The notes under the pieces are model-generated. The model saw nothing but the letters and a program-made list of their open reading frames with translations. It was not told the origin of the DNA and did not search any database. Positions 1 to 18,835 of a DNA stretch of 64,000 nt are shown piece after piece. Position 1 is the first letter of the stretch. Each line of letters opens with the position of its first letter. The stretch comes from Actinomycetota bacterium (GTDB taxonomy: Bacteria > Actinomycetota > Actinomycetes > Nanopelagicales > Nanopelagicaceae): contig WLNY01000004.1 in NCBI GenBank assembly GCA_009699575.1, positions 1-64,000 on the forward strand. The letters run 5' to 3'. Made by a program: the position numbers and the translations under genes.

Positions 1-717
1 ATGCGACGTTTGATCACTGCCGGCGTCGCTCCAGCGCAAGCCGCTGAGGAGGCAAAGACAGCCACGGAATTCAAACCAATCACCTCGATACTGGAAAATT
101 TTCAAGTTAATGAGGATCTTGTGGATGCGATTTATCGCGCTGCATTGGTATTCGATAAATCATTTATTGAGAGTGCATTACGTATGGCAATTGCAGAAAA
201 TGGTGTCGTACAAACTTGGCAGGAGGTCATCGCTCCTCTACTTGCAAAGATGGGTGATATCTGGGCGACAACAGGTGATGGAATTGAAGTAGAGCATCTC
301 TTCTCGGAAATCCTCAAGCGAGTTATGCGCGAATCTATTGTGGAGGTAAGTAACCCAATTAATGCGCGCCCTGTTTTACTTGCAGCTGTTGGTGAAGAGT
401 TGCATTCACTTCCGATTCACGCCCTTGCTGCGGCTCTTTCCGAACGCAATATTGAGTGTCATTTTCTTGGAGCCCGAACTCCATTGGCAGCACTCGCCGG
501 AATGGTCTCCCGATGCGCGCCACCAGCTGTATTTCTCTGGGCGCAGGTATCCACAAATGCCAATCCGGATTTCTACACCGAACTTCCCTCGGTTCGACCA
601 GCACCCAGAGTGGTTCTTGGCGGCCCTGGATGGGATACCGAAAAATGCACCGAAGTGGTCCATGTCGCCTCACTCACGCTTGCCTGCGAGGAAATCGCGC
701 GGGCGGTGGGGGCGTAA
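1..717 (+). CDS. CarH/LitR-like MerR-family regulator with B12-binding domain, 5' truncated
   Basis: This is the C-terminal part of a cobalamin-binding transcriptional regulator. The window opens inside the gene: the first visible residues look like the end of a MerR winged helix, so the codon at base 1 need not be the real start. Residues about 35-110 form the four-helix B12-binding cap and contain the W-x9-EH motif (W88, E98, H99) typical of adenosylcobalamin photoreceptors of the CarH family. A Rossmann-type B12 domain follows, with E133-x-H135 supplying the expected lower axial histidine and GG at 207-208. Two motif positions deviate: the usual Gly of ExHxxG is Pro138, and the Ser of SxV is Ala. 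In known relatives the dark form represses carotenoid or photoprotection genes and light releases it. The targets here lie outside the window. Confidence 0.8.
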   Translation: MRRLITAGVAPAQAAEEAKTATEFKPITSILENFQVNEDLVDAIYRAALVFDKSFIESALRMAIAENGVVQTWQEVIAPLLAKMGDIWATTGDGIEVEHLFSEILKRVMRESIVEVSNPINARPVLLAAVGEELHSLPIHALAAALSERNIECHFLGARTPLAALAGMVSRCAPPAVFLWAQVSTNANPDFYTELPSVRPAPRVVLGGPGWDTEKCTEVVHVASLTLACEEIARAVGA

Positions 718-725
718 TCCACCGA

Positions 726-1895
<1,170 letters not shown>

Positions 1896-1915: not shown

Positions 1916-3028
1916 ATGAGCGACATTGAATTAGCACCCGGCAAGCGTGCACGCCAGGCATATTCCTTTGACGATATCGCAATTGTTCCAAGCCGCCGAA
2001 CTCGCGACCCTCATGAAGTCTCCACATCATGGCAAATTGATGCCTATAAATTTGATCTTCCAATGCTTGCAGCGCCAATGGATTCGGTTGTTTCACCAGA
2101 TACAGCTATAGCTATTGGAAAGTTGGGCGGTCTTGGAGTGCTCAATCTTGAAGGACTCTGGACTCGATATGAAGATCCACGTATTCCTCTCGGTGAAATT
2201 GCATCAATGCCGGATAAGCATGCGACGCGGCGAATGCAAGAAATTTATGCGGCTCCGATTCGTCCAGAACTTATTAAAGAAAGAATTAAAACAATTCGTG
2301 ATTCTGGTGTCACTGTCGCCGCATCACTTTCGCCGGCGCGCACTGCAGAATTACATAAAGCTGTCATTGACGCGGGTGTAGATATTTTCGTTATTCGCGG
2401 AACAACCGTCAGCGCAGAACATGTTGCTGCCGAATCTGAGGCATTAAATTTAAAGAAATTTATTTACGAACTCGATGTTCCTGTCATCGTTGGTGGAGTA
2501 GCAACAGCAACGGGTGCGCTTCACTTAATGCGCGCAGGTGCTGCTGGCGTACTAGTTGGTTTTGGTGGAGGCGCAGCCCATACAACTCGTAAAGTATTGG
2601 GAATTGAAGTACCGATGGCATCTGCAGTTGCAGAGGTTGCATCGGCTCGTCGCGAATACCTTGATGAATCAGGGGGCCGATACGTACATGTGATTGCAGA
2701 TGGTTCTGTTGGTCGAAGTGGAGATATTGCAAAAGCGATTGCATGCGGAGCCGATGCGGTCATGATGGGATCTCCACTTGCGAAAGCTGTTGAAGCTCCA
2801 GGACTTGGCTGGCACTGGGGCTCAGAGGCTCATCACCCAGAGTTGCCTCGTGGCGAAAGAGTCGCGGTGGGAACCTCGGGCACTCTGGAAGAAATTTTGC
2901 TTGGGCCATCTCACGCGGCAGATGGATCGATGAACTTATTCGGAGCACTTCGCCGTGCAATGGCAACGACTGGATATTCAGATGTGAAAGCCTTCCAGCG
3001 CGTAGAGGTACTTATTCACCATGTCTGA
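1916..3028 (+). CDS. guaB3: GuaB3-family IMP dehydrogenase/GMP reductase-like protein
   Basis: A TIM-barrel protein of the IMPDH/GMPR superfamily, 370 residues, with the GuaB3 arrangement and no CBS insertion. The phosphate-binding segment [10 protein letters not shown] and the [13 protein letters not shown] stretch are clear. The active-site loop reads GGAAHTTR, so the position of the catalytic cysteine of true IMPDH (SICTT) is histidine. As I recall the mycobacterial GuaB3, it also lacks this cysteine, whereas cyanobacterial GuaB3, reported as a GMP reductase, keeps it. Enzymatic activity is therefore uncertain. It starts 20 bases after guaB with an AAAGGA site and overlaps guaA by 8 bases, so co-transcription is very likely. 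Confidence 0.88.
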
Positions 3029-4571
3029 GCCGTATGGCGTACTAGTCGTTGATTTTGGCGCTCAGTATGCGCAACTTATTGCCAGGCGCGTACGCGAGGC
3101 CAATGTTTTTTCAGAAATAGTACCTTCTAGTATTTCTGCTGCCGAAGTAAAACTAAAAAATCCAGAAGCAATTATTTTATCTGGTGGACCATCGAGTGTG
3201 TATGCAGAGAATGCTCCAAAAATAGATACAGCTATTTTTGCATTAGATATTCCGATATTTGGAATTTGTTATGGCTTTCAAGCAATGGCTGCAGCTTTAG
3301 GTGGCACAGTTAGTCAAACAGGTAAGTCTGAATTTGGTCGGACAGAAGTAAATGTCAAGAGTGCGTCAAAAACTTTTATAAATCTACCAAGCAAACAGAG
3401 CGTCTGGATGTCACATGGAGATGCGGTCACCGAAGCGCCATGTGGATTTACAATCACCGCAGTAACTGATGACACCCCAATTGCAGCATTTGAAAGTGAG
3501 AATGGAAAACTTGCTGGGGTTCAATTTCACCCAGAAGTATTGCATTCAGAACATGGTCAAATAATTTTACATAATTGGCTTATTAACATCGCACAGTGCA
3601 AGCCTTCATGGACGACGTCAAACATTGCACAGACTGAGATTGAAAAAGCACAAAGAATTATCGGCGACAAGAGAGTTATCTGTGGGTTATCCGGTGGAGT
3701 GGACTCTGCTGTCGCTGCAGCAATTATTCAAAAAGCTGTCGGGCGCCAACTCACTTGTGTTTTCGTAGATCATGGCCTCCTTCGTAGCGGAGAATCCGAA
3801 CAAGTACAACGCGACTTTGTTGCAGCCACTGGAATCGACCTAGTTGTAGTTGACGCTGTTGATCAATTTCTAAGCGCACTTGCTGGAGTAACGGATCCCG
3901 AAACAAAACGTAAAATCATTGGCCGCGAATTCATTCGATCCTTCGAAAAAGCAGCGCGCGATATAGCTGCAGGCGGGGATGTCGAATTTCTTGTGCAGGG
4001 CACTTTGTACCCAGATGTGGTTGAGTCTGGTGGCGGAACCGGTACAGCAAATATAAAGTCTCATCACAATGTAGGTGGCCTACCTGATGATTTAAAGTTC
4101 ACTCTCATCGAACCTCTTCGCACGCTTTTTAAGGATGAAGTTCGCCAGGTAGGACTCGAATTAGGTCTGCCAGAAGAAATCGTATGGCGACAGCCTTTTC
4201 CTGGCCCCGGGCTTGGTATTCGAATCATCGGGGAAGTCACTCAGGATCGTTTAGATATTTTGCGTGAAGCCGATCTGATTGCTCGAACAGAATTAAAGGC
4301 TGCGGGCCTTGATCGTGATATTTGGCAATGCCCTGTTGTCCTCCTTGCTGATGTTCGAAGCGTTGGCGTTCAGGGGGATGGGCGCACTTATGGTCACCCA
4401 ATTGTTTTGAGGCCAGTATCGAGTGAGGATGCAATGACTGCGGATTGGTCTCGAGTTCCTTATGATGTACTTGAGAAAATATCTACACGCATCACCAATG
4501 AAGTTCGTGAAGTCAATAGAGTTGTTCTTGATGTAACGAGTAAACCACCAGGCACGATTGAATGGGAGTAA
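3021..4571 (+). CDS. guaA: GMP synthase (glutamine-hydrolysing)
   Basis: Converts XMP to GMP using ATP and glutamine. The N-terminal class I glutamine amidotransferase domain carries GICYGFQ with the nucleophilic Cys near residue 84, and QFHPEV supplies the His/Glu of the triad. The central ATP pyrophosphatase domain has the P-loop SGGVDSAV near residue 225. The C-terminal dimerisation domain ends in KPPGTIEWE, the standard end of bacterial GuaA. Length (516) is normal. The start codon overlaps guaB3 by 8 bases, making this the third gene of the guanine cluster. Confidence 0.97.
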
Positions 4572-17671: not shown

Positions 17672-18754
17672 CTACTTGATTCGTTCTCCTGTTGTGGAAT
17701 TAAATAAATGAACCACAGCAGCAGCGGCAGTAACAGAAATAGTTTCACCAGGTTTTGGTGGATTTTTTGGATCCCAGCGCACAATTACTTGCGCTCCTTC
17801 ATCTGTTGTCTGTGCGAAATCAACCGAACTGTCTGCAGGTTTTCCGTATACGAAAGAATCGGCACCAAGTTCTTCAACAACTTCAACAAGTACATGGAAG
17901 CCATCAGCACTTGGAGCAAAACCTTCAGGACGTATTCCAACTGTCACGGTATCTCCAGCGCTTGCAGGAACGCTAATGGCCAGGTTTCCTAGCATCGCTT
18001 TTCCATCTTTTACTGGCGCATTGAGTAAATTCATTGCAGGTGAACCAATGAATCCGGCTACAAATGCATTTGCAGGATTGTCGTAAAGGTTTCTTGGTGT
18101 ATCGACTTGCTGGAGGATGCCATCTTTGAGAACGGCAACTCGATCACCCATTGTCATTGCTTCAACTTGATCGTGTGTTACATAAACAGTTGTGATTCCT
18201 AATCGTCGTTGTAGTGCTGCGATCTGAGTACGTGTTGCCACTCGTAATTTGGCATCAAGATTTGAAAGTGGTTCATCCATAAGGAAGACCTGAGGTTCAC
18301 GTACGATCGCACGACCCATAGCTACACGTTGGCGTTGTCCGCCTGAGAGAGCCTTTGGTTTGCGATCAAGATATGGCTCAAGGTCAAGTAGTTTGGCAGC
18401 TTCAAGAACTCGGCGATCGCGCTCCTCTTTAGCTACCCCCGCAATCTTGAGTGCAAAGCCCATATTTTCAGCAACTGTCATATGGGGATAGAGTGCATAG
18501 GACTGGAAGACCATTGCAATATCGCGATCTTTTGGCGCAACATTGGTTACATCGCGATCTCCGATGAGGATACGTCCGCCGTCAATATCTTCAAGGCCCG
18601 CAAGCATGCGAAGAGATGTGGATTTTCCACACCCTGAAGGTCCTACAAGGACGAGGAATTCGCCATCATTGACGACGAGGTTTAACTTATCTACAGCAGG
18701 GGTAGTAGTCCCTGGGTAAATACGGGAAGCGTTTTCAAATACAACTGAAGCCAT
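17672..18754 (-). CDS. Sugar ABC transporter ATP-binding protein, UgpC/MsmK/MalK type
   Basis: A 360-residue ATPase that energises carbohydrate import. Visible are Walker A GPSGCGKST (about residue 38), the Q-loop FQSYALYPHM, the signature LSGGQRQR, Walker B FLMDEPLSNLD and the H-loop VTHDQ. A C-terminal OB-fold/TOBE regulatory domain runs from about residue 240. No permease or binding-protein gene is adjacent, so it is probably a shared ATPase serving several sugar permeases, as MsiK does in streptomycetes. That role is inference. The ATG at 18754 has an AGAAGGAGA site; the upstream extension is not needed. Confidence 0.92.
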   Translation of the reverse strand: MASVVFENASRIYPGTTTPAVDKLNLVVNDGEFLVLVGPSGCGKSTSLRMLAGLEDIDGGRILIGDRDVTNVAPKDRDIAMVFQSYALYPHMTVAENMGFALKIAGVAKEERDRRVLEAAKLLDLEPYLDRKPKALSGGQRQRVAMGRAIVREPQVFLMDEPLSNLDAKLRVATRTQIAALQRRLGITTVYVTHDQVEAMTMGDRVAVLKDGILQQVDTPRNLYDNPANAFVAGFIGSPAMNLLNAPVKDGKAMLGNLAISVPASAGDTVTVGIRPEGFAPSADGFHVLVEVVEELGADSFVYGKPADSSVDFAQTTDEGAQVIVRWDPKNPPKPGETISVTAAAAVVHLFNSTTGERIK

Positions 18755-18771
18755 GAAAAATTCTCCTTCTC

Positions 18772-18789
18772 CGGGCAGGTACGTGCCCG
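18772..18789 (-). promoter_or_regulatory. Hairpin/inverted repeat in the leader of the sugar ABC ATPase gene
   Basis: CGGGCA and TGCCCG form a 6-base inverted repeat with a 6-base centre, immediately upstream of the ribosome site of the ATPase gene. It could be an operator or an mRNA hairpin modulating translation. No regulator is identifiable. Confidence 0.35.
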
Positions 18790-18835
18790 ACGGTCCGTGG
18801 ATGAAGGTGACCAACCAAGTGGATGGTCAAGAGAA

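Follow-up and report, generated by a model that had tools for sequence, protein, structure and literature searches.

A class-wide branch of the LitR/CarH family, in which a MerR DNA-binding domain is combined with a C-terminal cobalamin domain, is on balance probably dedicated to the divergent gene whiB3/whiD, which it would repress in the dark with AdoCbl bound and release in the light. The new point is the whiB3 partner of the regulator. If the proposal is true, light and cobalamin would be linked to the Fe-S regulator WhiB3 in much of the class, abundant freshwater bacteria among them. The source was taken from the start for an aquatic-type actinobacterium, which agrees with its nearest named relative, Candidatus Planktophila limnetica.

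The window, that is the whole stretch of 64,000 nucleotides analysed (G000:C34:1-64000), opens within the regulator gene, whose ORF begins at the first base of the contig. The rest of the locus lies on a second contig of the same genome, C8 (locus L003). The features are:

1..717, + strand: 3′ part (238 codons plus stop) of the MerR-B12 (LitR/CarH-type) regulator, truncated at the contig start
121..330, + strand: four-helix cap (Pfam B12-binding_2)
373..648, + strand: Rossmann B12-binding domain, with the cobalt-ligand His of ELHSLP at 403-405 and GGPGW at 619-633
777..1895, + strand: guaB-type gene directly downstream of the regulator (named from sequence; conserved order)
1916..4571, + strand: guaB3 and guaA (named from sequence; conserved order)
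Contig C8, L003:308 down to 150, - strand, outside the window: first 53 codons of the regulator, with most of the MerR helix-turn-helix
Contig C8, L003:384-408, + strand, outside the window: conserved site TTGAACAACYTATGVMDCGGTTGTA between regulator and whiB3
Contig C8, L003:444-743, + strand, outside the window: whiB3

The other-strand end of C8 is identical to the start of the window over 149 bases. The join is accepted because this overlap is exact and because unbroken relatives, up to 62% identical, are of similar length. Read through the overlap, the regulator has a GTG start and comprises 291 amino acids; the ATG at window position 1 is an internal Met and the true start lies 53 codons further upstream on C8. 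The window ORF matches Pfam B12-binding_2 above the cut-off (E 5.8e-7), B12-binding slightly below it (E 2.7e-6) and the PDB chains of TtCarH at E 1e-9 to 1e-10. The MerR helix-turn-helix that the preliminary description proposed to look for upstream is present in the joined protein (Pfam MerR_1, E 2.3e-12, 47.3 bits, cut-off 21.6). B12-binding_2 reaches 29.7 bits (cut-off 23), and B12-binding reaches 27.7 bits, below the cut-off of 32.1, as does TtCarH itself at 25.4. With MerR HTH, B12-binding_2 and B12-binding, the joined protein has the domain set of the LitR/CarH family taken broadly. It scores 97.2 bits against the NCBIfam CarH equivalog NF052513, far from the cut-off of 400, and TtCarH scores 510. 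The original assignment as a CarH-type regulator holds in the wide LitR/CarH sense and fails in the narrow one, by the equivalog as well as by the CarH motif. A structure prediction for the regulator from five sequences was too poor for use (mean pLDDT 56).

Signature residues were read from an alignment of TtCarH (L106), 58 Nanopelagicaceae sequences including that of the window, and 41 further class sequences, among which L038 also belongs to Nanopelagicaceae. The counts exclude the paralogue loci L064 and L065, the cut copies L001-L004 and five loci that had been fetched twice, and the 99 sequences are not independent events, since about 35 of them come from the window's own genus. The W-x9-EH motif first noticed in the helical cap is there (W at 262-264, EH at 292-297), and is exact in 57/58 Nanopelagicaceae and 31/41 other sequences. 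Its origin by chance was considered and dropped, the domain profile matches being significant. Of the cap residues (TtCarH numbering), W131 and E141 are present in all 58 and H142 in 57; the 41 have the three in 33, 40 and 40. The cobalt ligand H177 is kept in 58/58 and 40/41. The position of His132 is Ala in the window protein (265-267) and His in none of the 99 aligned relatives. A substitute His was sought in both aligned groups, where only the cap His, the ligand His and one His of the DNA-binding wing are conserved. Arg176 of TtCarH is Leu in the window protein.

The cobalamin domain differs from TtCarH at further positions. The Pro noted earlier in place of the Gly of ExHxxG was read correctly (His 403-405, Pro 412-414); this position, Gly180, is Ala in 47 and Pro in 11 of the 58 and Pro in 36/41. 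Asp201 is Arg in the window protein, in 57/58 and in 28/41. The Ala reported for the Ser of SxV has to be corrected: aligned with TtCarH, Ser222 corresponds to Trp (538-540), found in 58/58 and 38/41, and the Ala is the next residue. Both groups also conserve Trp126, Trp233 and Trp264 (joined-protein numbering), where TtCarH has Leu, Ser and Ala. The published motif of CarH homologues consists of Wx9EH in the four-helix bundle and ExHx2Gx41SxV/Tx22-27GG (PMC8156234). The latter part fits TtCarH (1/1), none of the 58 Nanopelagicaceae and none of the 41 others. Judged from the aligned sequences, the unusual residues are marks of a class-wide family, common to Streptomyces LitR-type proteins, and not the peculiarity of this protein that they had seemed to be. 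Surveys based on the CarH motif would miss the whole actinobacterial branch.

Grouping the protein with CarH and LitR relatives, the check suggested at the outset, places it in this branch. In a tree of 63 proteins the 59 actinomycete rows, two paralogues excepted, form one branch (99/99) apart from four CarH-like rows. Members linked to whiB occur near its base and throughout it, and the Streptomyces LitR-type group (100/99) branches from within them. The root is unsure because long branches join the outgroup rows; we infer that the whiB linkage is ancestral in the branch. The two excepted paralogues, at L064 (G100:C8) and L065 (G133:C2), are a second, more CarH-like MerR-B12 gene that keeps Gly180 and Ser222 and has Asp/Asn at 201. 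Each lies in a Nanopelagicaceae genome, has no whiB and diverges from a gene whose secreted product carries fasciclin-like repeats (named from sequence).

In actinobacteria, proteins of the WhiB3/WhiD type control redox homeostasis and development, and WhiB3, an Fe-S protein, is a partner of the principal sigma factor. The whiB gene beside the regulator is WhiB3-like (E 3.9e-34 to WhiB3 versus 2.6e-13 to WhiB1; Pfam Whib, 84 bits). The regulator is adjacent and divergent to whiB at 63/63 Nanopelagicaceae loci of the orthologue, some of them fetched twice, and divergent from an adjacent whiB at 29/40 other class loci (L066-L105). Genes are mostly arranged as groES-groEL, whiB, regulator, guaB-guaB3-guaA; at L081, L084, L098, L099 and L102 whiB adjoins the regulator with no groEL or guaB within the stretch. 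At class loci without whiB, the divergent neighbour of the regulator is a sigma-factor-like gene (L085, L096, L103), a photolyase-like gene (L079) or a polyprenyl-synthase-like gene (L092), all named from translations. Carotenoid, photolyase or rhodopsin genes, anticipated nearby and considered as targets, were not seen at the window locus, where the neighbour is whiB3; the rhodopsin and photolyase that the genome encodes are on a contig other than that of the regulator. Titles and opening parts of abstracts yielded no paper linking a MerR-B12 regulator to whiB genes and nothing on WhiD with MerR and B12-binding, which is no claim of absence from print. Elsewhere on these contigs, a secreted-looking protein of 1593 amino acids with repeated SWNTSHVTDMSRMF-type units is encoded near the groEL end of the locus (L003 2974-7755, - strand), and an msiK RNA (Rfam RF01747, 62.9 bits; window 18757-18815, - strand) lies where an ABC-transporter ATPase gene (17672-18814) begins.

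The two genes also occur together across genomes. The regulator is matched in 80 and whiB3 in 85 of 98 near-complete family genomes. Counted by hand from the search rows, 78 have both, 2 the regulator only, 7 whiB3 only and 11 neither (p ~2e-8, rows taken as independent). The two 'regulator only' genomes are G100, which has just the paralogue, and G139, which has a damaged whiB. Ten genomes of genus g2 lack the regulator and show distant whiB matches only; three further g2 genomes (G129, G135, G153) do match whiB3. Against a functional link, regulator and site could have been lost together by a single deletion in a small number of lineages.

The intergenic region carries, on the whiB strand, a -35 box, a 17-bp spacer filled by the TTGAACAACYTATGVMDCGGTTGTA site, and a -10 TAnnnT box. 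Many spacer bases are conserved as strongly as the boxes. Matched with one degenerate 25-letter pattern, Nanopelagicaceae promoters with an adjacent regulator have the site at ≤5 mismatches in 62/63 rows, or 58/59 distinct loci, four loci being present twice; the sole exception is L037, where whiB is damaged. Family loci with whiB3 but no regulator have it in 0/12, with a best match of at least 7 mismatches (L113 offers only 51 upstream bases). L148, from the same genome as L037, in which the regulator is present, was kept out of this set. The best match in 480 shuffles has 7 mismatches. At ≤6 mismatches, 29/35 class promoters with an adjacent regulator have the site, on the opposite strand in L070 and L088, versus 1/14 without; it was not found beside the regulator at this threshold in L075, L078, L081, L098, L099 and L203. 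The single regulator-less match (4 mismatches) is L208 (G504), where an unrelated 308-aa neighbour occupies the regulator's place beside whiB3. The p-values of these associations are too small because rows were treated as independent and the family value was computed on all 63 rows.

Within the window's genus the site is unique. A scan at ≤3 mismatches gives one site each in 38/46 genomes, including 13/13 near-complete ones, and 0 for the reversed-pattern control; further genomic targets were sought at this threshold and none emerged. A weaker second copy lies 26-27 bp upstream in 32/62 rows (≤6 mismatches) versus 11/1240 shuffles. The whiB start is 10 bases past the site in 30/62 rows, as in a leaderless transcript. 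At its 5′ end, the site agrees with the operator repeat of TtCarH, nAnnTnnACAn, in 39/53 family sites but in 2/28 class sites, and the repeat was therefore not used. Ahead of the regulator start, which looks leaderless, there is a second conserved element near AAGTGGTGAGTT..GGCCACTT, for example in L005.

Control of whiB3 by the regulator through the site between them is strongly indicated by the computed domain make-up, pairing, site, link of site to regulator and single site per genome in the genus; binding of AdoCbl, repression rather than activation, and light sensing are presumed. In the dark, an AdoCbl-bound oligomer of the regulator would sit on the site in the -35/-10 spacer and exclude RNA polymerase, and in about half of the close relatives it would also occupy the second copy. 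Light would break the Co-C bond and release the regulator, and WhiB3 would be made. Repression is favoured from the position of the site, which fills a promoter close to consensus; in known CarH systems, too, operator and promoter overlap (PMC8156234). For LitR/CarH proteins as a whole, negative regulation is the mode described (PMC6739363). S. coelicolor LitR is described as a coenzyme-B12 photosensor and works as a light switch in vivo, which speaks for light sensing; against repression, it is reported to promote the transcription of litS in the light (PMC12705666). Because His132 is absent from all aligned relatives, the bis-His switch of TtCarH cannot serve as the light step, which must use another read-out. 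A light repressor of the CarH type is further disfavoured by the absence of the CarH motif from 99/99 relatives and by the equivalog score (97 versus 400 bits). The TtCarH variant H132A was largely tetrameric in light in one study, while an earlier study reported disassembly (PMC10442372); the natural absence of His132 is therefore the main doubt about light sensing. The regulator would also make it testable whether CarH-type sensing can work without His132.

The window's genome encodes a PduO-type adenosyltransferase; this AdoCbl-making enzyme, found in 55/61 family genomes, speaks for an AdoCbl-dependent repressor. Cobalamin riboswitch matches (E ≤ 0.001) occur in 58/61, with 31 above the gathering score, and B12 supply therefore matters to these bacteria. 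Apart from the regulator, the one B12-binding_2 protein found in this genome, which is incomplete, is a small corrinoid protein (L181 1072-1737, - strand) beside a methyltransferase-like gene, both named from sequence. WhiB and LitR are absent from the main text of a light/dark RNA-seq paper on freshwater actinobacteria (PMC8591293). The same regulator, with the same target, could respond to the AdoCbl level of the cell, or to AdoCbl oxidation, in place of light, as a protein counterpart of the B12 riboswitch. The riboswitch matches, the missing His132 in all 99 relatives and the tetrameric H132A variant speak for this, as without His132 the photoproduct may not release DNA. Streptomyces LitR-type proteins, however, also lack His132, yet the S. 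coelicolor protein acts as a light switch, and W-x9-EH, the cap over the light-labile adenosyl group, is kept in 57/58 close relatives, so that sensing of AdoCbl level alone seems rather unlikely. A regulator with a degenerate B12 domain that works free of cobalamin on some other signal would have a precedent in class II LitR with its LOV partner (PMC9758184). It would account for the replaced Gly and Ser of the motif and for the three extra conserved Trp residues, but the ligand His is kept in nearly all family and class sequences, and the cap Trp, Glu and His in nearly all of the family, and this reading is improbable. It is also improbable that the site is merely a well-kept sigma-A promoter of whiB3, or WhiB3's own site, with the MerR-B12 protein acting elsewhere. 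The boxes 17 bp apart and the retention of the site in L208 are as expected from such a promoter, but not the spacer bases conserved as much as the boxes, nor the absence of the site from regulator-less whiB3 promoters (12/12 in the family and 13/14 in the class).

Light- and AdoCbl-dependent repression of whiB3 can be extended, tentatively and with rather less confidence, to an ancient class-wide relay from light and AdoCbl to Fe-S chemistry. A His132-less B12 photoreceptor would have served the whiB3/whiD promoter alone, with a photochemical read-out other than bis-His and a cobalamin pocket rebuilt around the conserved tryptophans, and Streptomyces LitR, which targets litS and carotenoid genes, would be a later derivative.

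Three known systems resemble parts of this arrangement. TtCarH from Thermus thermophilus, about 28% identical to the window protein, shares the MerR HTH, four-helix cap and Rossmann B12 domain as well as W131, E141, H142 and H177. It differs in having His132 (the light-state ligand), Asp201 and Ser222, where the window protein lacks the first two and has Trp at the third, and in its carotenoid and photolyase gene neighbours. The WhiB3/WhiD locus of actinobacteria has the same groES-groEL, whiB3, guaB order, but in Streptomyces-type and other genomes whiB3 has no adjacent MerR-B12 gene in 14/20 loci. Streptomyces LitR (litR-litS) belongs to the same clade and is likewise divergent from a gene for a transcription initiation factor. 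The partner there, in contrast, is an ECF-type sigma factor with carotenoid genes and not whiB3; two named Streptomyces plasmids carry the regulator/sigma-factor arrangement, one of them also with a lycopene cyclase. The inferred LitR proteins L085, L096 and L103, so named from their gene arrangement (S. coelicolor LitR itself lies outside the comparison), share Ala at 132, Pro at 180 and Trp at 222 with the window protein and have W-x10-EH in place of its W-x9-EH.
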